Shown here: positions 37,600 through 60,923 of the stretch, one piece after another | How the letters are laid out: every line of letters begins with the position of its first letter | Position numbering within the stretch: the first letter of the stretch is position 1 | Source: Psychrobacillus sp. BL-248-WT-3 | GTDB lineage: Bacteria; Bacillota; Bacilli; Bacillales_A; Planococcaceae | Direction: 5' to 3' | Length of the DNA stretch: 64,000 nucleotides | NCBI RefSeq assembly: GCF_012843435.1 | Contig: NZ_JABAFC010000005.1 | Span: 1 to 64,000, forward strand | The notes under the pieces: model-generated | Told to the model about the DNA's origin: nothing | What the model saw: only the letters and a program-made list of their open reading frames with translations | Database searches by the model: none | Translations under genes and position numbers: made by a program

Positions 37600-38538
37600 A
37601 TGGATTCAGCTTTAATCAAACTAAAAAAAGAATTGAACCAATCTATTATAGGTAGACAAAAAGAAATCGATTTTATGCTAATGGGTTTGTTAGTTCAAGG
37701 CCATGTGCTATTAGAAAGTGTACCTGGATCTGGAAAAACAATGATGGCTAAATCTTTTGCAGAAGCCATTCAAGGAGAATTTAAACGAATACAATTTACT
37801 CCCGATGTTCTTCCTTCAGATGTAACAGGAATTAGTTACTTTCATCCTCAGAAGCAGGAGTTTATTCTGCGGATGGGTCCAGTAATGAGTAATATTTTGC
37901 TTGCAGATGAAATTAATCGTGCCACTCCAAGAACTCAGTCCAGTCTTTTAGAGGCGATGGAAGAGAAACAAGTGTCAATTGATGGTGAAACTATTAAGCT
38001 ACCTTATCCTTTTATGGTAATTGCTACACAAAACCCAATAGAATCACAGCAAGGTACCTTCCAGTTACCTGCTGCTCAGCTAGACCGCTTTTTATTTAAG
38101 CTTAATATTGGTTATCCAACCATGAAGGAAGAGAATTACATTTTAAAACATTTTGGTCAAGCTCCTGGAAAAGTTAAAACTAAGCAAGTGGTTACTCTTG
38201 AGAAAATTGAAGAATGGTCTAAGCAAGTAAATAATATTCAAGTTCATGAAGATATTTTTACTTACATCATACAAATTGTACAAGGCACGAGAAAACACCA
38301 GTACATAGAACTAGGGTTAAGTAGTCGAGCTTCTTTAGCTATGCTACAGGCTTCTAAAGCCCACGCCTTCATTAATGGTAGGGAGTATGTGACACCAGAC
38401 GACGTAAAGAACATCATAGATCCTGTTTGTTTGCATCGCCTTAGATTGTCCTCGCAAGGAATGTTAATCCATGAAATATCTAATATTATGGCAGAATTGA
38501 TTAAAGAAATTGAAGCACCTGTTGAGGCAAGTATATAA
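37600..38538 (+). CDS. MoxR family AAA+ ATPase (first module)
   Basis: A 312-aa AAA+ ATPase of the MoxR group, chaperone-like proteins that mature metal-binding or von Willebrand-type partners. The Walker A is SVPGSGKTM (about 39-47), Walker B LLADEINRATP (about 103-113), sensor 1 ATQNPIE, and the arginine-finger/C-terminal helical lid follows with SSRASLAML. GGAG precedes ATG 37600 by 9 nt. It overlaps the next gene by one base (TAATG), forming a three-gene operon with DUF58 and DUF4129 proteins. Confidence 0.93.
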   Translation: MDSALIKLKKELNQSIIGRQKEIDFMLMGLLVQGHVLLESVPGSGKTMMAKSFAEAIQGEFKRIQFTPDVLPSDVTGISYFHPQKQEFILRMGPVMSNILLADEINRATPRTQSSLLEAMEEKQVSIDGETIKLPYPFMVIATQNPIESQQGTFQLPAAQLDRFLFKLNIGYPTMKEENYILKHFGQAPGKVKTKQVVTLEKIEEWSKQVNNIQVHEDIFTYIIQIVQGTRKHQYIELGLSSRASLAMLQASKAHAFINGREYVTPDDVKNIIDPVCLHRLRLSSQGMLIHEISNIMAELIKEIEAPVEASI

Positions 38539-39695
38539 TGACGTGGAAACGTAACGATGTAAACTATAAGTATATAAAAATATATAGGGATATATTGCTG
38601 ATCAGTGGGGTATTTCTTTTTATCTTTGATCAGCATGTACTTTTCGTTATTATTTTCTTTTTGTTATGTTTCGTGTTGATTCAACTGCTTTACTTTCAAA
38701 AAGTTGGTAGTGGACTTACTTTTGTAAATGAGAAAAAAAGAGTTAGATTAATGAAAGGGACTACCTCACATTTTGAGCTGACTTTTAAAAATAAAGGTAT
38801 GCCGATTTGGAATGGCACCATTACAATAGCATTCCACGATTCAGTTGCTCCAGTTAGAGCCAATAATATTTTATCTTCAGGATTTTTTGAGGTGAATGTT
38901 CCTTTTTCTATTGGATACAATAAAACAGTTACGATACAAGTACCTATAGTTGGTAGTCGAAGAGGTCTTTCGAGGTTTAGAGGCATAGATATTAATATCC
39001 CTCATCCTTTAACGGAAGGTTCTATTATATTGAATTACCAACCATACATATTGATGGATGCAATGGTTTATCCAACTATCTATCCAATCAAAGAAGAATT
39101 TCTTCCTACTCGACTTAAGCCTGGAGAGCTGGAGTTAAATTCTTCTTTGTTTGTTGACCCGTTCTTCCCTATTGGTACTAGAGAATATGAACAAGGTGAT
39201 CAGTTTAACCATATTCATTGGAAAGCAAGTGCAAGGACACAGCAGCTTCAAACCAAAATTTTTACAAAAGTTACTAATGTATCGGTATTATTTTTAGTTA
39301 ATCTTGCAGATGGGTATAGGATGGTTCATGATTTTGAGGAGAAGATAGAGTGGCTAGCATCTAATGTGGAAGCTTGTTATAAGGCAAATGTTCCCTTTGG
39401 ATTTGGCTTAAATATTCGAGCATCAGGAAAGAGACCATTTGTATTTGTTCCTTTAGGCTCTGGTGATGTACATAGACTAAATGCTTTAGAGTTACTTTCT
39501 ATTCTATCGGTTAGCAATATCACTATACCATTTGAAAATATGATTAAATATATTGATAGTCATGAGGAAATACCGGTGTCTGTTCGAGTTTTTTCTCATA
39601 ATATGGAGAAGTATCATTCCATATTAACCCCATGGGAGCAGAAGGCCATTGTCACATATCTGACTGAGCAAGAGGAGGGAGATTATGTTAAATAA
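38538..39695 (+). CDS. DUF58 membrane protein (first module)
   Basis: A 385-aa protein with two hydrophobic helices in the first 60 residues. The hallmark DUF58 sequence follows: FFPIGTREYEQGDQFNHIHWKASART (split here: REYEQGDQFNHIHW, KASART) at about 210-235. It begins within the stop of the moxR gene and overlaps the next gene. MoxR plus DUF58 pairs are common in bacteria and are thought to act in cell-envelope or protein-assembly tasks. The aspartates of a metal-binding (MIDAS-like) site are not obvious in this copy. Confidence 0.88.
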   Translation: MTWKRNDVNYKYIKIYRDILLISGVFLFIFDQHVLFVIIFFLLCFVLIQLLYFQKVGSGLTFVNEKKRVRLMKGTTSHFELTFKNKGMPIWNGTITIAFHDSVAPVRANNILSSGFFEVNVPFSIGYNKTVTIQVPIVGSRRGLSRFRGIDINIPHPLTEGSIILNYQPYILMDAMVYPTIYPIKEEFLPTRLKPGELELNSSLFVDPFFPIGTREYEQGDQFNHIHWKASARTQQLQTKIFTKVTNVSVLFLVNLADGYRMVHDFEEKIEWLASNVEACYKANVPFGFGLNIRASGKRPFVFVPLGSGDVHRLNALELLSILSVSNITIPFENMIKYIDSHEEIPVSVRVFSHNMEKYHSILTPWEQKAIVTYLTEQEEGDYVK

Positions 39696-40926
39696 CTCCA
39701 CTCAAACTTTCCATATACAAAAATTGTCCTATGAAAAGTACCTGAAGGATATGTGGATAGTTAGCTTGTTCTTTGTTTTATTGTTAAATGAGACTTTGGT
39801 AAGTTTGCCGTTTCTATGGATTGGTATCCAAATTTTTACCGTGCTGGTTGCCCAGTATACTTTTTCGAAATTTGGACCTAGTTTAATCATCGCTTTTATT
39901 ATTCCTACGGTGTCATTACTTTTCCTCTTTTTATTTGGAGGTCCCTTTTGGCTATATTGTATTGGGGTTCTAATATCTGTGTGTTGCTTACATTATAGAT
40001 ATAATGTAATTCAGTTGGATGAGGACAGTGATAATCCTTTTGCCTTACTGTCATTAATGGTATTTTTCTCTATCCACTTAATTTGTATTATGCTTGTGAT
40101 CGAAAATTATAAAATCACTTTATATAGTGTCTTTATAGGAGGAGTTATTTTCTTTGTAGGGTTAAGGCTATTTAGTGTTTGGAGAAAAAGTTACAGTCAT
40201 ACAAAAGAATCGTTAAACCAATTTGCACTTTATTATTTAGTTGGTTTGTCCGTTATCTTTCTTTTAACTTTCTTAAGCTTTTTGATTTTTAGCCCAGTGA
40301 GACAACTTTTAGGTGTGATCCTCCAAGGGTTGTTTACTATTGTGATGTTGCCTTTGACACCTTTGCTCATTTTAATTGAAAAATATTTGAGTAATTTGTT
40401 CAGCGAACCAGCAGAGGAAAGAGAACAGGATATTGTAGCAAATGACGGTATAATGGATGGTTTACGTCAAGATGAATCTGAAGCAATTACTTCGTCATTT
40501 CCAATAGAGTGGATCCTATTTGGGGCCTTAGGTATAGTAATACTTTTAATTGTTACTTATATTATCAAAAAGAAAATAGAATTTCCTGTGGAACAACAAC
40601 GAAATAATTTCATTTATAAAAATGATAATTTGGCTATTCAGGATGAAGAATTATTAAAGCAAAGTACCATTTATAAAGTTGAAGCTTCATTCCTTAGAGA
40701 GCTTTACTTTGAATTTGAAAAAGAGGCAACATCATTAGGATACAATAGAGAAATGAGTGAAACTGTTAGGGAATGGTTTAAAAGAATGTCATGGGAGGTA
40801 AAAGGTGAATTTTTTTCTACTTATGAAGAAGTAAGATATGGTGGTCACATGGTAGGAGAAGAACAGGCAGATATTTTTATAGAAGAATTGGATAAAATAA
40901 AAAAAATTTTAAAAAAAGAGGTTTAA
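39685..40926 (+). CDS. Multi-pass membrane protein with DUF4129-like C-terminus
   Basis: A 413-aa membrane protein with about eight helices in the first 240 residues, another near 275-295, and a cytosolic or external tail. The tail (about 330-410; LYFEFEKEATSLGYNREMSETVREW, then FSTYEEVRYGG) fits the DUF4129 domain that ends transglutaminase-like TgpA proteins. Unlike those, no transglutaminase core with a Cys-His-Asp triad is seen between membrane part and tail. It closes the MoxR-DUF58 operon; ATG 39685 has GAGGAGGGA upstream. The missing enzymatic domain suggests a structural or divergent role. Confidence 0.75.
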   Translation: MLNNSTQTFHIQKLSYEKYLKDMWIVSLFFVLLLNETLVSLPFLWIGIQIFTVLVAQYTFSKFGPSLIIAFIIPTVSLLFLFLFGGPFWLYCIGVLISVCCLHYRYNVIQLDEDSDNPFALLSLMVFFSIHLICIMLVIENYKITLYSVFIGGVIFFVGLRLFSVWRKSYSHTKESLNQFALYYLVGLSVIFLLTFLSFLIFSPVRQLLGVILQGLFTIVMLPLTPLLILIEKYLSNLFSEPAEEREQDIVANDGIMDGLRQDESEAITSSFPIEWILFGALGIVILLIVTYIIKKKIEFPVEQQRNNFIYKNDNLAIQDEELLKQSTIYKVEASFLRELYFEFEKEATSLGYNREMSETVREWFKRMSWEVKGEFFSTYEEVRYGGHMVGEEQADIFIEELDKIKKILKKEV

Positions 40927-49060: not shown

Positions 49061-51457
49061 ATGCAGATACGCAAGTTTGCTTTGGCAATCGCAGCACTTT
49101 TTATCATTTTTTGTATTCAGCCTTTAGATGCCTCAGCAGCTCCAAGCTTAAAGGTCAAGACTACTCTAGGTTTTGACGGTAAGGCAAAGTACGGAGAGGG
49201 ACTTCCAATAACGATCACTGTAGAAAATTCAGGTGATGCTTTTTCGGGGGATATCGTGCTTGATATGTTCGAATCTTATAATTTAGGCAATGGACAGGCA
49301 ATTCCATTTGAAATTGGTGCTAAAGAAACAAAGACAGTTCAAATTGCCGCTTCGGGATTAAGTGACGACTATTTATACTCCAACTCCAATACAAAGCTTG
49401 TACACTTTTATGAAGGGGGCTGGGAAAAGGGGAAATCGATTGACTATAAAGGCTCCAAGAATTTAAAAGTAAACTTTATGGACCCATCCACGACTTTTTA
49501 TTTGACTATGACTAATAGTGCCGACCGTTTAACTTTTTTAAATGGTTTTAAACAATCGAATAGTCAAGTAGTCCATTTAAGTCAGTTAAGTGACTTCACT
49601 TATCCGACGGAAGGTATAGCTTGGCAGATGGCAGATTACATATTTATAGATGAGTATGTGTTGGCAGACCTTTCTAATAGTCAGCAACAGGCACTAGTTG
49701 ATTATGTTAGTTCAGGGGGAAATATTATTGCTGGGGCATCCGATAATACTTCCGCAGAACTTGGATTATTAGCAGAATACTTACCTTTCCAATTGCAATC
49801 GACCACCAAAAGTCTCTCACCCCAAACAGTAAGCTCTATAACTGGAGAAAAGGTATTATCAAATGATTTAACTGTATATGAGGCTACTTTAACTGAAGGT
49901 TCACAGCCCTTAATTAATTTAGAGGGAACATTACTGGCTGGCCAAAAAAAGTTAGGAAAAGGGGCAATTATACAAACAACCTTTTCTTTAGGTGATACCC
50001 CTCTCGCAAAAGACGAAGCGTATCCAGAGTTAATGAAAAAGATACTGAATCCAATAAAAACGCAATCTAATAATTATATGTATGGAAATAACCTAAAGGA
50101 TCAATTAGTTCACGATATTGGTAACACCAATTCTCTTTTTGCTTCTTTCAAAGTATCGACTCCTTTAATGATAGGAATTGTAATCATTTATATGCTTTTA
50201 GTAGGTCCTTTACTTTACCTCATATTGAAGAGAAAAGATAAAAGAGAATATGCGTGGGGCATTATTCCGTTACTTGCTATTATAACTTCCGCTGCCATAT
50301 TCGGTTACGGTGCAAAGGATCGCATTGCCAAGCCACAAGTTCAACAATCCTCGTTTTTATATGTGAATGAAGATAGCAGTCTTAGTGGGTATTATGCAGA
50401 ATCGATATTAAGTAACAAAGGGGGAGAGTTTGCTTTTACGTCTCCAAATAGTACGTCTATGGTTGCAAATAGAGCGTACAACTCCTTTACAGGCGAAACC
50501 GTTAACATTCATGAAAACGTAATACTTGAGAAGAGTGCTTCAAACTCAGAGCTAACATTCCGAGATCTTGGATATTGGTCTGTTTCTTCTTTTTACGGAG
50601 AAACATATATTCCTGAGGTAGGTAAAATAGATTCGAATCTTCGAGTTGAGGCAAGTAAACTATCAGGTACTATAACCAATAGCTTCCCGTTTGCACTTAA
50701 AGACGTTTCTATCTGGTCTGGTTCCAAATTAATAAAGCTAGGAGACTTAGAGCCTGGGGGACAAATGGAAGTCAATAAGGACATAGGATCGATTATGCTA
50801 AGTCCAACTTCTAATCCTTATATTAATAATGGTGGTAGCTGGGGCCAGAATGCTGCGAATCAAGACGATTTAATAACACAACGTAAAAAGTCTCTGTATT
50901 CGACGAGTAAAACTATGGAACAACAAGCAGCCAAACCTGCTATTACTGCATTCGTGGAGGATAATGTACTACCAATTGAGCTGAAAGATAAAAAGGTAGA
51001 AATGTCTGCACTTCATTTGTTGATACAACCATTTGAGGCAGAAACTATTATATCAGGTGATTTTACACTTCCTTCCACGAGCTTTACGGTTAATCTGGAA
51101 GCAGATGCTATGGGTAAATACATGGAACCAATGGAAAATAGTAACTTCGAGTGGTATTTAGATGACGGAGAATACATTACGTCATGGAAGCTACCAGAAA
51201 CTATAGCAGTAGAAGACGTAACTTATACCCAATTACAAATAGCTAATACGGATCGAAACTCGCAAACAATCGAGCTATGGAATAATAAATCAGAAACATA
51301 TGAGCCAGTAGATGAAAGCAGATTTACTATAAAAGAAAATATTTCCAATTATATTAACAAAGATGGAGTAATTATATATAAATTGACGAAGGACTCTATT
51401 GATGGAAATTCTTATACACGACTTCCAGAGGTTCGCATGAAAGGGGAGGTTAAGTAA
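49061..51457 (+). CDS. Exported membrane-anchored protein of the MoxR/ABC cluster, 798 aa
   Basis: It has a signal peptide (about 1-26, ending DASA-A) and a large extracytoplasmic region (about 27-365) beginning with a beta-rich NPCBM/alpha-2-macroglobulin-like part (GLPITITVENSGDAFSGDIVLD). A GATase-1/GldG-like segment follows (DYIFIDEYVLADLSNSQQQ, ALVDYVSSGGNIIAG). Two membrane helices are at about 370-390 and 398-418, then a second extracytoplasmic region of about 380 residues. I know no characterised homologue. The domain flavour resembles proteins beside ABC transporters of the GldF/GldG type. GGAGGG precedes ATG 49061, the first gene of the cluster. It overlaps the ABC ATPase start by one base. 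Confidence 0.75.
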   Translation: MQIRKFALAIAALFIIFCIQPLDASAAPSLKVKTTLGFDGKAKYGEGLPITITVENSGDAFSGDIVLDMFESYNLGNGQAIPFEIGAKETKTVQIAASGLSDDYLYSNSNTKLVHFYEGGWEKGKSIDYKGSKNLKVNFMDPSTTFYLTMTNSADRLTFLNGFKQSNSQVVHLSQLSDFTYPTEGIAWQMADYIFIDEYVLADLSNSQQQALVDYVSSGGNIIAGASDNTSAELGLLAEYLPFQLQSTTKSLSPQTVSSITGEKVLSNDLTVYEATLTEGSQPLINLEGTLLAGQKKLGKGAIIQTTFSLGDTPLAKDEAYPELMKKILNPIKTQSNNYMYGNNLKDQLVHDIGNTNSLFASFKVSTPLMIGIVIIYMLLVGPLLYLILKRKDKREYAWGIIPLLAIITSAAIFGYGAKDRIAKPQVQQSSFLYVNEDSSLSGYYAESILSNKGGEFAFTSPNSTSMVANRAYNSFTGETVNIHENVILEKSASNSELTFRDLGYWSVSSFYGETYIPEVGKIDSNLRVEASKLSGTITNSFPFALKDVSIWSGSKLIKLGDLEPGGQMEVNKDIGSIMLSPTSNPYINNGGSWGQNAANQDDLITQRKKSLYSTSKTMEQQAAKPAITAFVEDNVLPIELKDKKVEMSALHLLIQPFEAETIISGDFTLPSTSFTVNLEADAMGKYMEPMENSNFEWYLDDGEYITSWKLPETIAVEDVTYTQLQIANTDRNSQTIELWNNKSETYEPVDESRFTIKENISNYINKDGVIIYKLTKDSIDGNSYTRLPEVRMKGEVK

Positions 51458-52386
51458 TGATTGAGATTAAGGGATTAACTAAAAAATATGGCTCTTTTTA
51501 CGCTTTGAATGATTTAAATTTAACTTTACACGAGGGCACTGTTTTTGGATTTGTAGGAGCAAATGGTGCAGGCAAATCTACAACCTTTTCTATTCTTGCT
51601 ACTCTATTACAACCAACTTCGGGGGAAGCTTTTGTTAATGGTAAAAGTGTTAAGACAGACCCTCACGAGGTTAGAAAACAGATTGGCTATATGCCCGATT
51701 TTTTCGGAGTTTACGATCAACTAAAAGCGAATGAATATTTGGATTTTTATGGTGCTTCCTATGGTATTCCAGAGGCTGAAAGAGCGGTTTTAATACCTCA
51801 GCTACTTGAATTAGTGAACTTAACACATAAGCGTTATGCATATGTAGATCTTCTTTCTCGAGGGATGAAACAGCGTTTATGCCTAGCTAGGGCATTGATC
51901 CATGATCCAAAGGTATTGATATTAGACGAACCAGCATCTGGCCTAGATCCACGTGCACGTATCGAAATGAGAGATATATTAAGACAGTTGAAGGAAATGG
52001 GAAAAACCATTTTAATTTCTTCTCATATATTACCCGAGCTCGCTGAAATGTGTGATGAGATTGGAGTCATTGACGGTGGTAGGCTAATTGCTCATGGCTC
52101 GGTACAAGAAATACAAGCTCAGCTTGCTGGTGAAAGACGTATTACTGTCAAAGTAAAAGGATTGCTTGAAAATGCAGCCACTTTCTTTGAGGAGGACCCT
52201 TTTGCATCTAAGGTAGAGAGCCACCCAGAGAAAAATGCTATTACGTTTAGCTATAGAGGATCAGAAGAAGACCAGATTAATTTACTTAAAAAGGCAGTAG
52301 AACAAAGCTTGAAAATCATATCTTTTGCTGAAACAGAAACAGATTTAGAAGATGTATTTATGGAAATTACGAAGGGGGCGAAGTAA
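51457..52386 (+). CDS. ABC transporter ATP-binding protein (ABC-2 type)
   Basis: A 309-aa ATPase with Walker A GANGAGKST (about 34-42), signature LSRGMKQRLCLARAL (in place of LSGGQ), Walker B VLILDEPASGLDP and the H-loop ISSHI. The ~80-residue C-terminal extension is common in ABC-2 exporters. It fits a two-gene exporter with the following permease, of the GldA/CcmA/YtrB type. It begins within the stop of the upstream gene (TAATG), so translation is coupled. The transported cargo is unknown. Confidence 0.92.
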   Translation: MIEIKGLTKKYGSFYALNDLNLTLHEGTVFGFVGANGAGKSTTFSILATLLQPTSGEAFVNGKSVKTDPHEVRKQIGYMPDFFGVYDQLKANEYLDFYGASYGIPEAERAVLIPQLLELVNLTHKRYAYVDLLSRGMKQRLCLARALIHDPKVLILDEPASGLDPRARIEMRDILRQLKEMGKTILISSHILPELAEMCDEIGVIDGGRLIAHGSVQEIQAQLAGERRITVKVKGLLENAATFFEEDPFASKVESHPEKNAITFSYRGSEEDQINLLKKAVEQSLKIISFAETETDLEDVFMEITKGAK

Positions 52387-52387
52387 G

Positions 52388-53236
52388 TTGAAGCAAGCTT
52401 TAAATAATCCGGTGCTTATAAAAGAGATTAAACTACGCTTTCGCTCTCTGAAAAGCTTTACAGGTATATTATTTTATCTCATTGCTATGTCAATTTTTGT
52501 ATTTGGTTTTATCCTATTAACGACCTCATTTACAGGCACAGGGTATTTTAGACCAGAAGAAAGTTTCTTTATGTTTGTGATGCTTACCTATATTCAGCTC
52601 GGTCTTATTCTTTTCATCACACCAGGTCTTACAGCTGGAGCTATTAGCTCGGAGCGTGAGAAGCAAACCTTGAATATATTGTTAACAACATCTCAAACCT
52701 CTTTTCAAATTATTATAGGAAAGCTTTCTTCATCTATTGCTTTTTTATTGTTACTTTTAGTCGCAGGCTTGCCTGTCTATAGCTTCGTATTCCTATTTGG
52801 TGGAGTTTCACCTGGACAGCTTGGCTTAATCTTTTTATTTTTCTTCATAACTATGATGGCAATTGGCAGTATAGGCATTATGTATTCCACTATTATTAGG
52901 AAAACAATTGTCTCTATGATTGCTACCTATGGGACGATGATTTTTTTTGCAGGGGTAACTGGATTTATTTATCTAGTCCTTACTGGTATGAACAGTATGG
53001 CTACGGGAGCACTAGCAACTTCTCCTCAGCCAATAGCTCATTTTTTTGCAACGATCAATCCAGTTGTCCTAATGTTAAATTTAACAATGTCCAGTTCTGA
53101 AAGCTTTATCGGTCAAACAACTAATATAAACTTTCCAATATGGGCAGGATATGCAATTTTTTATGTATTACTAACCGTACTAGCAATTTTTATAGCTGTA
53201 AGAAAATTACGTGTAAATATGAAGAAATCTAAGTGA
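52388..53236 (+). CDS. ABC-2 type permease
   Basis: A 282-aa permease with six membrane helices. The N-terminus NNPVLIKEIKLRFRS is typical of ABC-2 permeases partnered with CcmA-like ATPases, and the ISSEREKQTLNILLTT loop is the family coupling motif. TTG 52388 lies about 11 nt after AAGGGGG and one base after the ATPase stop; a longer overlapping frame from 52352 has no support. It pairs with the preceding ATPase. Confidence 0.87.
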   Translation: MKQALNNPVLIKEIKLRFRSLKSFTGILFYLIAMSIFVFGFILLTTSFTGTGYFRPEESFFMFVMLTYIQLGLILFITPGLTAGAISSEREKQTLNILLTTSQTSFQIIIGKLSSSIAFLLLLLVAGLPVYSFVFLFGGVSPGQLGLIFLFFFITMMAIGSIGIMYSTIIRKTIVSMIATYGTMIFFAGVTGFIYLVLTGMNSMATGALATSPQPIAHFFATINPVVLMLNLTMSSSESFIGQTTNINFPIWAGYAIFYVLLTVLAIFIAVRKLRVNMKKSK

Positions 53237-53248
53237 GGAGTACTATAA

Positions 53249-54649
53249 ATGGAGAACAATAACAGATTAATCCAGTGGATTAAAAAAGCTAAATATAGCC
53301 TAGTAATTGAACACTATTTTAGAATGCTTCAAGGAGCTCTATTTTACGGATTTCTTTCTGTTGCTATCATTTTCCTAATATCTCGCTTGTTTGTCTTACC
53401 ATATTACACAATTTATGCCTGGTCTTTAGCATCTCTTGTTTTTGCCATTTTTTTAGGATGGGCATTTTGGAAAAGACCAAAGGAGGAAATAGCTCTTCGA
53501 CAGTTGGATGCTTATTTCCCTGATAATGTTCTAATGACTGCCGTTTCATTTATGCATAATAAAAGCCCCCTCGCTCAAGGTATTTTGCGCAAAGCTGAAA
53601 CTAGTGGGGGAGTAGCTTTTGAGGCATTTAAAAAAAGAAAAAAGAATTATTTTGAAGTAAAATGGATGGTCGGGTTAATAATGTCATGTGCGGCGATTCT
53701 TTTGTTATACACGTTTCCCGCGACTACTCAATTAGAAGCAAAAGATATTGAACAAGAAAAACAAATAATAAGTGATATAAAGAAGGAAGTAGAGAAACTA
53801 GAGAAAAAAGATTTATCTAAAGCAGTAAAAAAGGATTTAGAGGAATTAAGGGAATCATTGAAGGATACAGAACTTGCTGAAGAAGCATTGAGAGAACTTA
53901 TAAAAAAACAAAAGGAGCTTGCTCTTAAGGAACAAAAACTAGAAGAAAAGAAAAATATGGCTAACTCAGATGGATCAGAGGGAGCCTCTTTAAACGAAGC
54001 GGAGTTAAAAGAGCTTGCTTCCTTAAAGGAGTCTAATAGCGCATTGGCAAAAAGTTCAGCATCTGCTCACTCTACTCTAAGTAAAATGGGGAAAAAGCTT
54101 CCATTTTCCTCGAACAATATAGCACAAGGTAATACAAATTCAAATAATAACAGTAACAATAACCAGCAAGGCCAAGGACAGCAAGGTCAAGGCCAACAAG
54201 GTCAAGGACAGCAAGGTCAAGGCCAACAAGGCCAGGGTCAAGGTCAAGGACAACAAGGCCAGGGGCAAGGTCAAGGCCAGGGGCAAGGTCAAGGTCAGGG
54301 TCAAGGTCAAGGCCAAGGCCAAGGGCAGGGGCAAGGTCAAGGCCAAGGCCAAGGTTCAGGAGGACAAGGCGCTGGTAAGGGTTCTGGAGGAAGGGACCTC
54401 CTTTCTATTCCATCTAGAATAGGTGGTACTGGAGATACGAGTGTAGACAGTGGAAGCCTTGGCGAGGGTGACTCTTCTAGTGAAGAGCCAGCAGAAGCAC
54501 CAACAACTAGAGGTACGGTTAAATCATACGAGGAAGTCATCAATGAATACACGGACTCCTATTTAAAGAGTTCGGAAAGAATGCAGCTCCCTTCTGATTT
54601 ACAGAGGATTGTTCAGGATTATTTCTCATCCGTAGAAAATAACGATTAA
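53249..54649 (+). CDS. Membrane protein with long Gly-Gln repeat, DUF4175-like
   Basis: A 466-aa protein. Two N-terminal hydrophobic helices (about 28-48, 50-70) and one at about 139-160 anchor it. A coiled-coil region follows (about 165-235; IISDIKKEVEKLEKKDLSKAVKK, LEELRESLKD), then a Ser/Asn-rich linker and a (Gly-Gln)-rich tract of about 65 residues. After that come a Gly-rich hinge and a short C-terminal helix (YTDSYLKSSERMQLPSDLQRIV). This resembles DUF4175-type proteins found beside MoxR and vWA genes in other bacteria, but I cannot place it firmly. It overlaps the next gene's possible start and belongs to the 49-61 kb cluster. Confidence 0.7.
   Translation: MENNNRLIQWIKKAKYSLVIEHYFRMLQGALFYGFLSVAIIFLISRLFVLPYYTIYAWSLASLVFAIFLGWAFWKRPKEEIALRQLDAYFPDNVLMTAVSFMHNKSPLAQGILRKAETSGGVAFEAFKKRKKNYFEVKWMVGLIMSCAAILLLYTFPATTQLEAKDIEQEKQIISDIKKEVEKLEKKDLSKAVKKDLEELRESLKDTELAEEALRELIKKQKELALKEQKLEEKKNMANSDGSEGASLNEAELKELASLKESNSALAKSSASAHSTLSKMGKKLPFSSNNIAQGNTNSNNNSNNNQQGQGQQGQGQQGQGQQGQGQQGQGQGQGQQGQGQGQGQGQGQGQGQGQGQGQGQGQGQGQGQGSGGQGAGKGSGGRDLLSIPSRIGGTGDTSVDSGSLGEGDSSSEEPAEAPTTRGTVKSYEEVINEYTDSYLKSSERMQLPSDLQRIVQDYFSSVENND
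54164..54354 (+). repeat. Imperfect Gly-Gln coding repeat
   Basis: About 190 bp of alternating GGT/GGC/GGA/GGG and CAA/CAG codons inside the 466-aa gene. Codons are varied, so it is a protein repeat rather than a pure microsatellite, but units such as GGTCAAGGCCAA recur and could slip. Antisense reading gives a spurious Leu-rich frame. Confidence 0.9.
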
Positions 54650-54660
54650 TGGAGGAAACT

Positions 54661-55653
54661 ATGGAGTTAACAACTGAAGACTATATCAATATGAGTAAAC
54701 GTTTAGAAACAGTTCGCCAGGAAATAGGTCAATTTATTGTTGGACAAAAAGAGGCAGTAGAATTTTCTATTTATTGTGTTTTAGCAGATGGTCATGCACT
54801 TTTAGAGGGATTGCCAGGACTTGGGAAGACTATGCTTATCCGTACAGTTTCTGAAGTACTTGACCTTTCCTTTTCACGTATTCAGTTCACCCCTGACCTC
54901 ATGCCATCTGATATTACGGGGACTAGTATGATCGAACGATTAGAGAGCGGAAAACAACAATTTAGTTTTCAAAAAGGACCTATATTCAGTCAGATGGTTT
55001 TAGCAGATGAAATAAATCGTGCAACTCCTAAAACTCAAAGTGCCCTCTTAGAGGCGATGGGAGAGAAGACTGTTACGGTCCTCGGAGACACCAAGAAGAT
55101 GGATCGACCATTTTTTGTATTAGCAACACAGAATCCAATTGAAATGGAAGGGACTTATCCATTGCCAGAAGCACAAATGGATCGATTTTTATGTAAGATA
55201 ATTGTTTCCTATCCAACTAAAGATGAGTTAATAGAAATTACAAAGAGAACTACGGGAAGCCAAGATATTCGTTTGAACAAAGTAATGAATGCAGAAGATC
55301 TGATTATTGCTCAACAAATGGTTAAGGAAGTATTGATTGCGGATGACATGTTAGAGTATGCAGTTGATCTTATTGCAGCTACTCACCCGGAATCTTCTGT
55401 CGTCCCAGAAGTTCAGCAATATGTTCAATATGGGAGCGGCCCTCGTGGTTTGCAAAGCCTTATTAAACTAGCAAAAGCAAGAGCCTTGGTTTCAGGACGT
55501 TATCACGTTTCGATAGCTGATATTAAAACCGTAGTAAAGCCTGTACTAAGACATCGTTTGTTGCTTAACTATGAGGGGGAAGCAGAAGGTAAAAGTACGG
55601 ATGACTTAATTGAAATTATTTTACAAACAGTGAAGCAAGGACAAAGTGTATGA
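54661..55653 (+). CDS. MoxR family AAA+ ATPase (second module)
   Basis: A 330-aa AAA+ ATPase with Walker A GLPGLGKTM (about 50-58), Walker B MVLADEINRATP (about 111-122), sensor 1 LATQNPIEMEGTYPLPEAQMDRF and a C-terminal lid domain. It is about half identical by eye to the first module's MoxR in the motif regions. I start at ATG 54661, 5 nt after GGAGG; an in-frame ATG at 54649 overlaps the preceding stop. It overlaps the DUF58 gene by 4 bp (ATGA). Confidence 0.93.
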   Translation: MELTTEDYINMSKRLETVRQEIGQFIVGQKEAVEFSIYCVLADGHALLEGLPGLGKTMLIRTVSEVLDLSFSRIQFTPDLMPSDITGTSMIERLESGKQQFSFQKGPIFSQMVLADEINRATPKTQSALLEAMGEKTVTVLGDTKKMDRPFFVLATQNPIEMEGTYPLPEAQMDRFLCKIIVSYPTKDELIEITKRTTGSQDIRLNKVMNAEDLIIAQQMVKEVLIADDMLEYAVDLIAATHPESSVVPEVQQYVQYGSGPRGLQSLIKLAKARALVSGRYHVSIADIKTVVKPVLRHRLLLNYEGEAEGKSTDDLIEIILQTVKQGQSV

Positions 55654-56525
55654 GTAAGGATTACTTGATCCCAAAAGATTGGACTGGAAAGCTAAGTCGA
55701 TTGTCTATAGCAACCAAATCTAAACTACGTGGACAGCATAAAGGGTCTCATCGCTCCCAAAGATTCGGTGCTTCTCTAGACTTCTCAGATTTCAGGGAAT
55801 ACACGCCTGGAGATGATGTTCGTCAAATTGACTGGAATGTTTATGCTAGAACAGATAAGTATTTTATCAAACGTTTTTTAGATGAACAGGAAATGAGAGT
55901 ACATATTCTACTTGACTCCTCAAAATCGATGGGAGAAAAAGTAAAATGGAATTTTGCTAGGCAATTAGCAGCTTCCCTAGGTATCCTTGTACTTCAAAGA
56001 GATGATCGACTTACCTTTTCCATGGTTTCAAATGAAAAAGTTCCTCCTTTCAGAAGAAAAGGGGCAACCTACCGTAAAGCGTTTGCACAAGTAATAACCG
56101 ATTTGAATCCGCCGTCTATGGTAGACTCCTTTGCTAAAAATGCAATCTCCTTTCTGCCGAAAGACAGTACTGTATTATTCCTTATTACGGATTGCTTGGA
56201 GGACATAGAGCATTTAAGAACTCTTATACAAAAACTACCTCGCTTTGCGGGTGATATACGACTGTTACAAATTGTTACGAATGAGGAGTTAACCCCTTCT
56301 TTTTCTGGTGATATGCAGTTGGAGGATGTAGAAACCGCTCAACAATTAAATATATCTATGTCTTCCAGAGTAATAGATTCCTACAATGAGGAAAGAAAGC
56401 TGCATCAACTTGCTTTAGAAAAGTTATGTAGTAAATTCGGTATCAAACTAATACAGGTCAATGCAGATGAGGGCATTTCTCATGTCCTATTTCATCAACT
56501 ACTAAGAGCAAATTGGGTGCAGTGA
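55650..56525 (+). CDS. DUF58 protein (second module)
   Basis: A 291-aa soluble DUF58 protein without membrane helices, unlike the first-module copy. The DUF58 signature is DFREYTPGDDVRQIDWNVYART (about 49-70 as two blocks). A von Willebrand A-like core follows, with the MIDAS-type DSSKSMG (about 89-95) and LITDCLED further on. In related operons DUF58 proteins work with a MoxR ATPase that is thought to insert metal or remodel them. It begins inside the moxR stop. Confidence 0.92.
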   Translation: MSKDYLIPKDWTGKLSRLSIATKSKLRGQHKGSHRSQRFGASLDFSDFREYTPGDDVRQIDWNVYARTDKYFIKRFLDEQEMRVHILLDSSKSMGEKVKWNFARQLAASLGILVLQRDDRLTFSMVSNEKVPPFRRKGATYRKAFAQVITDLNPPSMVDSFAKNAISFLPKDSTVLFLITDCLEDIEHLRTLIQKLPRFAGDIRLLQIVTNEELTPSFSGDMQLEDVETAQQLNISMSSRVIDSYNEERKLHQLALEKLCSKFGIKLIQVNADEGISHVLFHQLLRANWVQ

Positions 56526-56536
56526 GGTGAGTACAT

Positions 56537-58297
56537 TTGGGTTTTAGTCAATTACCATATTTATGGACAGCAATATTTCCAGTAGTTGTTCTCCTTTATT
56601 ATTTCTTCCGAAAAAAATATAGGAAGCAATCTGTTTCATCTACGCTTTTTTGGGAGGAAGTAATGAAAGAAACGAGGGCCTCTCCTTATTTACAGCACCT
56701 TCAAAAAAATGCCTTATTTTATCTTCAGATGTTAGCGATGATTTTACTTGTTCTTGCACTGATTCAGCCTTATTGGAAAAAAGAAGCACTTGCAGGAGAG
56801 CAGGTTATCTTTGTCGTAGATACATCCGCTAGTATCGAAGTAAATATTAATAATACGAATTTATTTGACCTTCATAAACAAGAAATGCTTGATATGATTG
56901 AGCAGTTATCTGGTAAGCCATTCACCCTTATTACTACAGGAAATGAACCAACTGCTGTATTAAAACAAGAAACAAATATAAATCATATAAAAAATGAAAT
57001 AAATAAATTAGAAGTGACATATGAGGATGAGGCATTTTCCAAAACACTAGATTTTGCTCAATCTTTTTTTCAAACGAAAGATACTTCGGTTTATGTATTC
57101 ACGGACAAGCTTGATCAACAGACACTACCCCTACACTATGAAAATGTCAGTTGGAATGTTATTGGACAGCCAGCGGAAGTGGATAATATATCCATTAAAC
57201 GTTTTGGGGCTACAAAGATGAAAAACGGAACTTCAGCATTGGTCCAAATTGACAATCAAACGAACGAAGAACAAAATGCCTCTTTAACCGTATCAAATGG
57301 AGAGAAGGATATTATAAAAGAGGCGGTTATTTTGCCACCTAGAGAAACGGTGACTCTTTCTTTTAATGAGTTGGAGGAGGCAAGCTTTCTTAAAGCTACT
57401 ATTGATGTTTCTGATGATTATCTCCTAGATAATGAAATGGTTGTATTTATGCAAGACCAGCTTTCTAAGATTTACATAGATAGCTCGCTACATACATTGG
57501 TTCGTACGGCATTTCAATCACTAGGGATTGAAATGAGCAGTATACCATCGGAGCAGGTAAGCTTAGTAAAAGAAGAAGGTATTCTCGCTACCAATCAGTT
57601 TGGTTTGATAAATCAAATGGAAAGACCAGCCTTATTTATTGGAAGAAATGATGTGACGCCAATCGAAGTGAACGGTAATGTTCAAACTGTGGAGCACCCG
57701 TTATTTTCTTTTGCTGATTTATCGGATATTTATGTGAGCAGTGTATACCCAGGAGTAGAAGGCTATTCTACAATTGCAACGGTCGATAATAAGCCCTTTA
57801 TACAGGTATCACCCAAAGGCGATGTAGTCGTGCTTTCCGATATACAAATGACTGATTGGCCATTAAGTCCTTCCTTCCCATTATTTATGTGGAGCGTAAA
57901 AGAACAGCTATCCAATAGTAATCTATATTTAGGAACATTTACTCCAAATGAAAGAAAACCTCAATCGTTAGGCAGTACGACGAACGAATGGGAAATATAT
58001 ACGATGGAGGACTCCTATTTATATTCTATTGAAAATGGAGGAGCCTTTATGGCACCAAGGGAGCCCGGTGTGTATGTTATACGTTCAGGTGAAAAAGAAA
58101 AATACTTTACGGTAGCATTATCACAAAAAGAAAAAGAAATTTCCAAAGGAGCTTCTTATTCCATTGGTGCTCAGAAAACAGATAAGCAATCCGAGAATCA
58201 TGAACAATTTTCGCTAGTTCCATTTCTAATTGTTTTATTGCTCTTGTTGTTTGTTATCGAGTGGGAGGTGCAAAGACGTCGTGGATTTACGAGTTGA
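56537..58297 (+). CDS. BatA-type von Willebrand A membrane protein
   Basis: A 586-aa protein with an N-terminal BatA/aerotolerance-type domain: a membrane helix (about 8-24), the FRKKYRKQSVSSTLFWEEVMKE segment (two parts) and a second helix (about 61-80). A von Willebrand A domain with MIDAS DTSAS (about 95-99) follows. Then comes a long region of extracytoplasmic type with no named domain, and a C-terminal helix (about 557-576). TTG 56537 has GAGGTGAG upstream. It overlaps the next gene by about 17 bp. This is the sort of substrate expected for the MoxR/DUF58 pair. Confidence 0.82.
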   Translation: MGFSQLPYLWTAIFPVVVLLYYFFRKKYRKQSVSSTLFWEEVMKETRASPYLQHLQKNALFYLQMLAMILLVLALIQPYWKKEALAGEQVIFVVDTSASIEVNINNTNLFDLHKQEMLDMIEQLSGKPFTLITTGNEPTAVLKQETNINHIKNEINKLEVTYEDEAFSKTLDFAQSFFQTKDTSVYVFTDKLDQQTLPLHYENVSWNVIGQPAEVDNISIKRFGATKMKNGTSALVQIDNQTNEEQNASLTVSNGEKDIIKEAVILPPRETVTLSFNELEEASFLKATIDVSDDYLLDNEMVVFMQDQLSKIYIDSSLHTLVRTAFQSLGIEMSSIPSEQVSLVKEEGILATNQFGLINQMERPALFIGRNDVTPIEVNGNVQTVEHPLFSFADLSDIYVSSVYPGVEGYSTIATVDNKPFIQVSPKGDVVVLSDIQMTDWPLSPSFPLFMWSVKEQLSNSNLYLGTFTPNERKPQSLGSTTNEWEIYTMEDSYLYSIENGGAFMAPREPGVYVIRSGEKEKYFTVALSQKEKEISKGASYSIGAQKTDKQSENHEQFSLVPFLIVLLLLLFVIEWEVQRRRGFTS

Positions 58298-60878
58298 TCA
58301 ACCACTATTGCTATTAATATCACTACCTATTCTTATTTATTTTATATGGATATGGAATAAAGACAGAAAGCATTGGAAGAAGGAAGGTCTTGTAGTTTTC
58401 TTTATCCGCCTGCTTGCTATTTTTTGTTTAATACTTGGTCTTACGAATCCGTATCTATTAATGCCGATCAAAGAGGAACAGGTAGTTTTCCTTATTGATC
58501 GTTCTGCTTCTGTTCAAGGTACGGAACAACAGGTTTCTGAGTGGATTGAAAAAAGCTTAGATGCTCAAACAGACAAACATCTAGTTGGAGTTTATTCTTT
58601 CGCTGAGAATTTTCAGTCAGAGATAGCATTAACGAATGAGGATATAAAGCTACCTGTCTTCAGCCCAATGGATTTACCTGGTAATACAGATATAGCTAAA
58701 GCGTTGCAATTATCTACTGGAATAATTGATCCCAACAAAGCTACACGAATTGTTCTCTTTACCGATGGAATTGAAACAAGTGGCTCGGTGGCAGACGAAC
58801 TCATGAAAATGACAGGTAGTAATGTAACTGTTGATGTGGTGGAGCTTGAGAGAATATCATCAGAGGATGTAGCGATTACTACATTTGAGACACCACCTGT
58901 AGCCTTTGAAGGAGAACAACAGCAGCTAAATGTAGAGTTAGAGGCTACTAAGGCAACTAATGCAGAGCTATTACTTTATCAAAACGATGAATTACTATCT
59001 AGAGAACAAGTATCCTTAGAACAGGGCTCCAATAGTTTTACATTCCGTAACACGTCTAAGGGTGAAGGTCTGTTGAAATATGACGTACAGGTGATCGTTC
59101 AAGGGGATGCTTTAATCGAGAACAATAAGCTTACGAGTGTTACGAATGTAGAGAACTCTCCAAGACTGCTGATTGTCACTAATGAGGATGCTACAACTAA
59201 TATTACTCAAGTAATTGACCAAGAGGCAATTACTACAGATGTTATCTCTGCTAGTTCCTTGCCATATGATTTATCAAATTATCTAGCCTATGATGCAATT
59301 ATTTTCGACAATGTTCCAGGGCATCTTGTTGGAGAGCAAAAAATGAACGTCATCGAACAGGCAGTCAAAAATTTTGGTACTGGATTTATGATGGTTGGCG
59401 GACAAAATAGCTTTGGACTAGGGGGATATTTTAAAACACCTATAGAAAAGTTATTACCCGTTGAGATGGAAGTGAAAGGGAAGCAACAATTACCTTCATT
59501 AGGACTTATTATAGTGATGGATAGGTCAGGAAGTATGGCTGGCTCTAAAATGGAGTATGCAAAGGAGGCCGCTGCTCGTTCGGTTGAAATGCTAAGAGAT
59601 GATGATCATTTAGGCTTCATAGCCTTTGATGATAAACCATGGCAGATCATTGAAACAGAGCCACTCACAGACAGGGAAGACGCGGTTGAAAAGATCCTTT
59701 CTGTAGGCGCAGGGGGAGGAACTGAAATATATTCAAGCCTTGCGCAAGCATACGAGCAGTTACAACCATTGAAGCTACAACGAAAGCATATCATCTTACT
59801 GACAGATGGCCAGTCAAGCTCGTCTAATGACTATCAAACTTTAATAGAAGATGGAAAAGAGAACAATATAACTGTTTCCACTGTAGCGGTTGGTCAGGAT
59901 GCAGACCGTGCTTTATTAGAAAGCCTTGCAGAAATGGGAGGTGGAACTTTTTATGAAGTACAGGATGAATCTACCATTCCAGCGATTATGTCTACTGAAA
60001 CGGCGATCATCTCCAGAACCTATATAGAGGATAATCCGTTTTACCCTACTATTTATGGAGACCCGACCTGGTCTAGTTTGTTTGTGGAAGGAGTTCCACA
60101 GATGAATGCATATATTGCAACCACTGCAAAACAAACTGCAAATGTTATTGCACAAAGTGAGAAGGAAGATCCAGTTTTAGCTGAATGGATGTATGGGTTG
60201 GGAAGAACACTTGCCTTTACTTCTGATTCTACTGGTGCCTGGAGTGGAGATTTTGCTCGTTGGAATAATTGGGGAGATTTTTGGAACACAGCAGTCTCTA
60301 GAATGCTCCCATCCTATAGTGAAGTGCCATATACGATTCAAAAAGCAAGTGATGGAAGCTATACGGTAACAGATCCATCTGGAAAATCATCCTTTATAGA
60401 AGTGGCAGCGGTCAATGAAAAAGGGGAGGAACTAGAAGTAAATTCAGAGCCATTGGCGCCTGGAAAATCACGTGTCACGGTTGAGAGCGAGCCAGGACTT
60501 GTATTTTTCCGAGTTTCCAATGAACAGGACGCTGTCTATCAAGCTGGAATATCAATTCCTTATAGTGAAGAATATAAGGTCCAACAGCCAGATGTCCAAA
60601 AACTACAGCTTATAACAAATAGAACTGGTGGAGAACTTTTAAGTGAACCAGCAGAGGCGTTTCGAGATATGGATGTCACTAGCTCCGAAAAACAGCCTAT
60701 TAGACAGATATTAATATTAATTGCGATAATCCTTTTCTTTATCGATATAACAATCAGGAGATTTGGATTTAAACAGCTAATTTTACCATTTAAGAAACCT
60801 AAAAAAGCAATTACCCCTTCCACTACAACAAAGTCCAGTAATATGGAAAAGCTAGTGAGAGAAAAGAAAAAACGATAA
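58281..60878 (+). CDS. Large von Willebrand A membrane protein with GATase-like domain
   Basis: An 865-aa protein with N-terminal helices (about 8-24, 37-57) followed by a first von Willebrand A-like domain (MIDAS DRSAS about 76-80, VLFTDGIETSG). A Pro/Glu-rich Ig-like part follows, then a GATase-1-like domain (YDAIIFDNVPGHL, FGTGFMMVGGQNSFGLGGY). A second complete von Willebrand A domain has MIDAS DRSGS (about 413-417) and LLTDGQSSS. Next come a beta-rich region and a C-terminal helix (about 812-830). GTG 58281 lies 10 nt after GGGAGGTG; upstream residues in the frame are an overlap artefact. It is the last gene of the cluster. The fusion order resembles the YfbK/vWA-GATase type seen in diverse bacteria. 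Confidence 0.82.
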   Translation: MDLRVDQPLLLLISLPILIYFIWIWNKDRKHWKKEGLVVFFIRLLAIFCLILGLTNPYLLMPIKEEQVVFLIDRSASVQGTEQQVSEWIEKSLDAQTDKHLVGVYSFAENFQSEIALTNEDIKLPVFSPMDLPGNTDIAKALQLSTGIIDPNKATRIVLFTDGIETSGSVADELMKMTGSNVTVDVVELERISSEDVAITTFETPPVAFEGEQQQLNVELEATKATNAELLLYQNDELLSREQVSLEQGSNSFTFRNTSKGEGLLKYDVQVIVQGDALIENNKLTSVTNVENSPRLLIVTNEDATTNITQVIDQEAITTDVISASSLPYDLSNYLAYDAIIFDNVPGHLVGEQKMNVIEQAVKNFGTGFMMVGGQNSFGLGGYFKTPIEKLLPVEMEVKGKQQLPSLGLIIVMDRSGSMAGSKMEYAKEAAARSVEMLRDDDHLGFIAFDDKPWQIIETEPLTDREDAVEKILSVGAGGGTEIYSSLAQAYEQLQPLKLQRKHIILLTDGQSSSSNDYQTLIEDGKENNITVSTVAVGQDADRALLESLAEMGGGTFYEVQDESTIPAIMSTETAIISRTYIEDNPFYPTIYGDPTWSSLFVEGVPQMNAYIATTAKQTANVIAQSEKEDPVLAEWMYGLGRTLAFTSDSTGAWSGDFARWNNWGDFWNTAVSRMLPSYSEVPYTIQKASDGSYTVTDPSGKSSFIEVAAVNEKGEELEVNSEPLAPGKSRVTVESEPGLVFFRVSNEQDAVYQAGISIPYSEEYKVQQPDVQKLQLITNRTGGELLSEPAEAFRDMDVTSSEKQPIRQILILIAIILFFIDITIRRFGFKQLILPFKKPKKAITPSTTTKSSNMEKLVREKKKR

Positions 60879-60883
60879 AATGT

Positions 60884-60922
60884 AAAAGCGCAACAGAGGC
60901 TTGTTTCCTCTGTTGCGCTTTT
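60884..60922. terminator. Strong terminator at the end of the 49-61 kb cluster
   Basis: A perfect 16-bp stem (60884-60899 with 60907-60922) flanked by A- and T-runs, shared by convergent MFS and vWA genes. Confidence 0.9.
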
Positions 60923-60923
60923 A

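Follow-up and report, generated by a model that had tools for sequence, protein, structure and literature searches.

An ordered eight-gene envelope set of Bacillota combining a GldG-like ABC trio with a MoxR/vWA module

Genes at the Psychrobacillus locus

The window analysed here is the whole stretch of 64,000 nucleotides at positions 1 to 64,000 of contig NZ_JABAFC010000005.1 from Psychrobacillus sp. BL-248-WT-3. Between positions 49061 and 60878 it carries eight plus-strand genes, p1 to p8, in which a trio resembling a GldG-type ATP-binding cassette (ABC) transporter (p1-p3) is followed by genes for a membrane protein, a MoxR-type ATPase and proteins with DUF58 and von Willebrand factor A (vWA) domains (p4-p8). 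This is an old, strictly ordered envelope gene set found in many Gram-positive bacteria, and it divides into two separable modules. Every junction measures 17 bp or less in either direction, and both ATPase sites and all four metal ion-dependent adhesion site (MIDAS) motifs are intact. The features are as follows.

49061..51457, + strand: p1, 798 residues, with signal peptide, immunoglobulin (Ig)-like region, glutamine amidotransferase (GATase1)/GIFT-like domain (about 145-335), two transmembrane (TM) helices (371-418) with a basic loop, and a large C-terminal ectodomain
51457..52386, + strand: p2, ABC ATPase of 309 residues, Walker A/B and signature intact
52388..53236, + strand: p3, ABC-2 type permease with 6 TM helices
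53249..54649, + strand: p4, 466 residues, 3 TM helices, external coiled coil, variable Gly-Gln linker and C-terminal motif
54167..54354, + strand: CAAGGC repeat array coding for the p4 Gly-Gln linker, of differing length among species
54649..55653, + strand: p5, MoxR-type AAA+ ATPase of 334 residues
55650..56525, + strand: p6, DUF58 protein, without TM helix in the window protein, MIDAS DSSKS at residue 89
56537..58297, + strand: p7, BatA-type 2-TM anchor, vWA domain (86-212), Ig-like domain, GATase1-like domain (310-460), C-terminal TM helix
58281..60878, + strand: p8, 2-TM anchor, vWA 1, Ig-like domain, GATase1-like domain interrupted by vWA 2, C-terminal TM helix and basic tail
60883..60923, no strand assigned: inverted repeat of 17 pairs between p8 and a convergent major facilitator superfamily (MFS) gene

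Pfam cut-offs were exceeded by the ABC ATPase p2, the ABC-2 permease p3, the MoxR AAA+ domain of p5, the DUF58 domain of p6, the BatA anchor and vWA domain of p7, and the vWA (two stretches) and GATase1-like domains of p8; the window proteins p1 and p4 gave no Pfam match over cut-off. Translation of p3 probably starts at the TTG at 52388, later than the mechanical open reading frame (ORF) start at 52352, and that of p8 at the GTG at 58281, later than the mechanical start at the TTG at 58230. A promoter scan of the locus scored no better than shuffled sequences, and the inverted repeat, common to p8 and the MFS gene, was called terminator-like on the minus strand only. Elsewhere in the window, positions 37600-40926 (plus strand) hold a second MoxR-DUF58 pair and, after it, a protein whose weak match to DUF4129 stays below cut-off, and the whole Psychrobacillus genome contains five MoxR-like places, one of them below cut-off.

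Conservation of the order and loss of p4-p8

Homologues were sought in three samples, of 299 genomes from the phylum, 200 from the family and 250 from the class. With p8 as query, 52 of the 299 phylum genomes matched at E<=1e-10; of these, 40 reached E<=1e-60, and the remaining 12 had short matches, mostly onto vWA 2. The family sample gave 141 matches in 200 genomes, of which 137 are long and mark the full carriers after removal of one fragment and of three genomes whose matches were confined to short vWA stretches, and the class sample gave 44 of 250 at E<=1e-30. Around the p8 matches 69 loci were fetched, 13 named, 18 from the family, 18 from the class and 20 from the phylum, the last drawn from the 38 genomes with E<=1e-60 that lie outside the family. 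All eight genes stand in identical order in 57 of the 69, from Bacilli to distant Bacillota (named 13/13, family 17/18, class 16/18, phylum 11/20), with one gene split over two frames in a few. The original prediction of eight co-directional genes in an envelope-type cluster is confirmed. The nearest named relative, Psychrobacillus faecigallinarum, has a p8 that is 89% identical. Five genes that flank the set in the window are found in 6-14 of the 18 family loci but are missing from all 38 class and phylum loci, supporting the ends of the eight-gene unit.

Contig ends truncate the sets of L068, L021, L022 and L030, and L054 has lost p4-p7 and most of p8. One class locus (L074) and three phylum loci (L032, L034, L036) keep p1 with no ABC ATPase seen; homology to p3 of a 4-6 TM protein in the ATPase-less loci is suggestive only (70.5% in hhalign), and in three of these loci the protein had no Pfam match. 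Three more phylum loci (L035, L037, L038) hold genes of the MoxR half with no recognised p1-p3 in the fetched stretch, other contigs having been left unsearched for p1. Several neighbours in these and other loci may be recorded. An ORF resembling a transposase by eye lies directly upstream in L035, and a lipoprotein-like DUF4430 protein stands upstream of p1 in two loci without ABC ATPase (L034:13254-14639 and L074:12983-14314). Neighbours hinting at the envelope, each from a single locus, are a transglycosylase/transpeptidase penicillin-binding protein (L032:13988-16249), an Omp85/POTRA protein (L037:12028-13899) and a DUF2207 membrane protein (L025:14945-17356).

The trio is found more widely than the module that follows it. 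A p1 search of the family sample recovered 158 of 200 genomes, including all 137 full p8 carriers, which leaves 21 with p1 and no full p8 and 42 with neither; a p1 profile matched 91 of the 250 class genomes (some matches partial), including all 44 p8 carriers and 47 p1-only genomes. No genome with p8 and without p1 was found among the carriers of the family (137) or class (44) samples. Masked stretches prevent a judgement on two of the 21 family genomes and could also conceal p8 in p1-only genomes beyond the fetched ones. For the family, 13 of the 21 p1-only loci were fetched (L054 and 12 others), two of them masked, and in all 11 readable loci p1, p2 and p3 are adjacent and p4-p7 are absent, the p1 frame of L083 being shorter at its C-terminus. 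The class set, fetched from 19 of the 47 genomes together with one second copy from a genome that also has a p8 gene, has the trio in 20 of 20 loci and p4-p7 in none. Pieces of p8 remain behind p3 in L054 and L089. On a concatenated-trio tree of 83 loci (52 full, 31 triad-only; midpoint-rooted, not filtered by support) the triad-only loci form 16 separate clusters, requiring 15 parsimony changes; L050 and L078, from related species with and without p4-p8, are neighbours on it. Because of these clusters and the p8 pieces in two loci, the simplest history to be read from the sequences is probably that the ancestor had all eight genes in one set and that p4-p8 then disappeared on many occasions while p1-p3 were kept. 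The original prediction of a single machine thus stands as far as one conserved gene set is concerned, but its parts are separable.

An MFS gene, recognised by eye, lies 58-270 bp past p3 in L077, L078, L081 and L087; in the window the same gene comes after p8.

Spores, flagella and S-layer homology (SLH) S-layers, for which co-occurrence had been suggested as a check, are not required. SpoIVA is absent from 22 of the 137 full carriers, ruling out a sporulation requirement, and 39 of 154 SpoIVA-positive genomes (two masked) have no full p8; SpoIVA and the full set are associated (Fisher p 0.001, kinship ignored), but the set is not tied to spore formers. FliF occurs in 86 of 101 genomes, and 13 of the 15 FliF-less ones carry the gene set, which disposes of a flagellar requirement. 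At a threshold of our choosing, at least 20 SLH domains, no association emerged among 101 genomes (42/23 against 23/13; odds ratio 1.03, p 1), and the S-layer link was abandoned.

Proteins of the two modules

The ABC motifs of the trio are near-invariant, as are the MoxR Walker A/B and neighbouring motifs, across 58-69 aligned sequences. The trio is GldG-like without matching the Gld equivalogs: GldA and GldF scores lie under cut-off (235.4 of 402.6 bits and 31.4 of 288.5 bits, respectively), and the GldG model matches neither p1 nor its aligned homologues. Among 34 aligned p1 sequences, DUF7408 was matched in 18 and DUF4350 in 10 (E<=0.01), the best DUF4350 E value being 4e-5 and the window p1 not being among the DUF4350 matches. 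Predicted models place a GATase1-like fold in the external region, an ectodomain type common to p1, p7 and p8, in a comparison made of Foldseek second-look alignments only, where folds that Foldseek ranked low could not appear; the model of p1 is of low quality as a whole (mean predicted local distance difference test score, pLDDT, of 61), with better stretches at about 190-330 and in parts of the C-terminus. Anti-phage defence was considered and rejected, the PADLOC matches being for p2 only and all to ATPase models. A second p1 place beside the p8-linked one occurs in genomes G610 (L097), G530 (in two frames), G630, G659, G684, G692 and G700; that of G610 is a stand-alone ABC trio additional to the genome's p8 gene, and the ABC trio therefore has paralogues.

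In the second half, p5 scores 208 bits against PF07726, the MoxR-type AAA+ family (cut-off 27), and its closest solved chain by sequence is 2r44 (E 1e-79). Its Walker A/B motifs and a conserved arginine, which we take to be the arginine finger, are kept across 66 sequences, and it adjoins vWA/DUF58 partners that bear MIDAS motifs. The motifs DSSKS, DTSAS, DRSAS and DRSGS had been described as intact, and their D and S/T residues are indeed kept among 58-69 homologues in DUF58, p7 and both vWA domains of p8; in DUF58 and in p7 a single position varies between S and T. The N-terminal anchor of p7 matches the BatA family PF07584 (51.3 bits, cut-off 25.9), giving the gene order MoxR-DUF58-BatA. 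A topology predicted from hydropathy and charge only places the vWA domains of p7 and p8 in the extracellular space and MoxR and DUF58 in the cytosol; the envelope location and the union of MoxR, DUF58 and vWA genes with a GldG-like ABC set are upheld. The ectodomains of p7 and p8 are related to that of p1. The original prediction had also described p8 as a GATase fusion, for which amidotransferase activity seems unlikely, since none of 69 homologues has a cysteine in the 11 columns that, on our own reading of the alignment, correspond to the nucleophile elbow.

The Gly-Gln repeat of p4 does not define the cluster and is variable. The longest run of G, Q, N, S or P ranges from fewer than 8 to 88 residues across homologues, and the CAAGGC array is a fast length polymorphism, whereas the TM helices (three in 24 of 33 sequences by a simple hydropathy count, two of the remaining nine being fragments), the external coiled coil read off the sequence, and the C-terminal motif (Y434, P448, Y458, F459, with Y458 and F459 invariant in 29 sequences) are kept. 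The best reading of these sequence features would make p4 a flexible tether rather than a functional core. Gly-Gln-type runs of 34 to 88 residues occur in the window, in ten Psychrobacillus loci and in one Bacillus-labelled locus, and the run is of 7 residues in Planomicrobium and Planococcus loci. No family was matched by the window p4. We had presumed a similarity to DUF4175, for which no support was found, with zero such Pfam matches in 29 sequences; the TrAA12 (7/29, best E 1.1e-10) and serine-rich (6/29, best 3.3e-8) matches of p4 homologues were taken for low-complexity matches.

Interpretation and relation to known systems

We tentatively favour a reading in which the ABC trio forms a core and p4-p8 a MoxR/vWA remodelling module with the trio as its client, an arrangement that we regard as quite possible and somewhat short of probable. 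The core would be a self-sufficient GldG-like ABC-2 transporter, with the external GATase1/GIFT-like domain of p1 serving in sensing or binding. MoxR (p5), with DUF58 (p6) as its cytosolic vWA adaptor, would act from inside on p7 and p8 at the expense of ATP, the external vWA and GATase-like domains of p7 and p8 would dock on the homologous p1 ectodomain, and p4 may be a membrane scaffold reaching outward through its coiled coil and elastic linker; as a result, ATP would power how the transporter is assembled, gated or recycled at the envelope. We infer the physical contact, the action of MoxR on the transporter and the output, and the manner in which p5 and p6 might act on p7, p8 and p1-p3 is taken by analogy from NorQ/NorD. 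The ABC transporter is preferred as client because the module is nested in p1 carriers in the family and class samples and p7 and p8 resemble the trio ectodomain. A narrower version, in which an AAA+ MoxR/vWA motor is dedicated to the ABC transporter, with vWA proteins copied and elaborated from its GATase-like ectodomain, as an optional and repeatedly discarded upgrade, is doubtful.

Several observations weigh against a trio served by its module. The nesting breaks outside Bacilli, where three of the 20 phylum loci keep p1 without ABC ATPase (class locus L074 likewise) and another three hold MoxR-half genes without recognised p1-p3; from L035, L037, L038 and the ATPase-less loci it follows that the MoxR half can occur in the absence of this transporter. 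Nor does a transporter working alone need the module. The nesting may come partly from gene order, a 3' deletion that removes p4-p8 being easier than a 5' one, and partly from shared ancestry, neither of which is taken into account by the hypergeometric values calculated for it, and the ABC and MoxR halves show seven conflicting pairs of well-supported splits.

The MoxR-half genes without a recognised trio nearby, together with related modules on Deinococcus and Ketogulonicigenium plasmids without a trio match, are what would be expected if the module served another envelope client (cell wall, morphology or stress resistance), as RL3499-RL3502 and Bat operons do, and the ABC trio were merely co-transcribed. 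Mutants of RL3499-RL3502 in Rhizobium leguminosarum have morphology and envelope defects according to passages of PMC5118466, PMC5700661 and PMC3893208. The complete nesting in p1 carriers of the family and class samples and the kinship of the p7/p8 and p1 ectodomains argue otherwise, and we consider this rather unlikely. Another reading unites p1-p8 in a single obligate machine for secretion or for the envelope, along the lines suggested by Makarova et al. 2015 for archaeal sets of DUF4350/GldG-like, MoxR and vWA proteins (PMC5898192, in part). It accords with this precedent, with the strict order in 57 of 69 loci and with the co-divergence of the ABC and MoxR halves, but the trio persists without p4-p7 in 11 family and 20 class loci spread over 16 tree clusters, and an obligate machine is unlikely. 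Maturation of a metallo- or redox enzyme by cofactor insertion, with MoxR/DUF58 in the role of NorQD or CoxD and the vWA membrane proteins as anchors only, draws on known MoxR roles (passages of PMC9976466 and PMC3893208) and is most improbable, as none of p1-p8 matches such an enzyme and the class and phylum loci, 38 in all, contain no match to the five neighbours tested.

MoxR/vWA modules are widespread, many without a known client, and evolution here points to the ABC trio as a candidate, since the trio accompanies the module in every sampled Bacilli carrier and survives its loss. The 21 family p1-only genomes span ten genera, and in several of these genera full carriers occur as well, so that matched pairs of soil bacteria could test MoxR/DUF58/BatA targets.

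No studied counterpart of the whole set had been named, and no paper on it appears among the literature matches listed, from a search that left subscription papers mostly outside. To our knowledge RL3499-RL3502 has neither the ABC trio nor p4, and it is set apart on this ground. The operon, described by Vanderlinde et al. in 2011, reportedly includes a vWA/GATase-type protein. In passages of the three articles cited above for its mutants, RL3499-RL3502 (cmdA-cmdD) is a broadly conserved operon with an MRP-subfamily MoxR, vWA and DUF58 domains being listed for the region. Bat operons have BatD and tetratricopeptide repeat (TPR) proteins, and the relevant passages (PMC5700661, PMC11834572) leave an ABC trio unmentioned; conversely, none of p1-p8 matched the BatD or TPR families at E<=0.1. 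Stress phenotypes are described for Bat operons in Riemerella (PMC11834572, in part).

In the plasmid module of Deinococcus aetherius, MoxR and DUF58 are accompanied by a weak p4 match and a protein with matches to p7 and p8, and in that of Ketogulonicigenium robustum by a protein that matches p8 and the anchor of p7; in both, the p1-p3 profiles match only unrelated ABC ATPases and, weakly for p1, the inside of the fused vWA protein. The p7 and p8 equivalents of D. aetherius lie in a single annotated gene of 1334 residues (L058:9961-13965).

MoxR also appears beside vWA or GldG-type genes in less related settings, a MoxR/vWA pair being noted in differentiating haloarchaea (PMC10067837, in part) and MoxR and GldG-family genes, under separate locus tags, among hydrazine-responsive genes of anammox bacteria (PMC12053348, in part). 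The archaeal arCOG01314 sets of Makarova, Galperin and Koonin (2015), predicted to act in secretion or membrane remodelling, combine a GldG-like ectodomain protein, a MoxR ATPase and a vWA protein in one operon, as p1-p8 do; the archaeal ectodomain protein is of the DUF4350 type, a family matched by 10 of the 34 p1 sequences and not by the window member. They differ in including S-layer-like Ig proteins; DUF58 has 0 occurrences in the text, and section 9 and the part of Table 2 consulted name no ABC ATPase (PMC5898192). By cut-off, p1-p3 are likewise not equivalogs of GldA/GldF/GldG from gliding Bacteroidota. The mechanistic model is NorQ/NorD, in which a MoxR hexamer with a vWA adaptor engages a membrane protein through the MIDAS and drives its remodelling (PMC9976466, in part); NorQD, a soluble system, has nitric oxide reductase as its target, whereas here p7 contributes one further vWA domain and p8 two, all three with a predicted extracellular position. 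The eight genes are a real and old set; MoxR/DUF58/vWA modules were already known, and the two-module structure of the set is the main new result.
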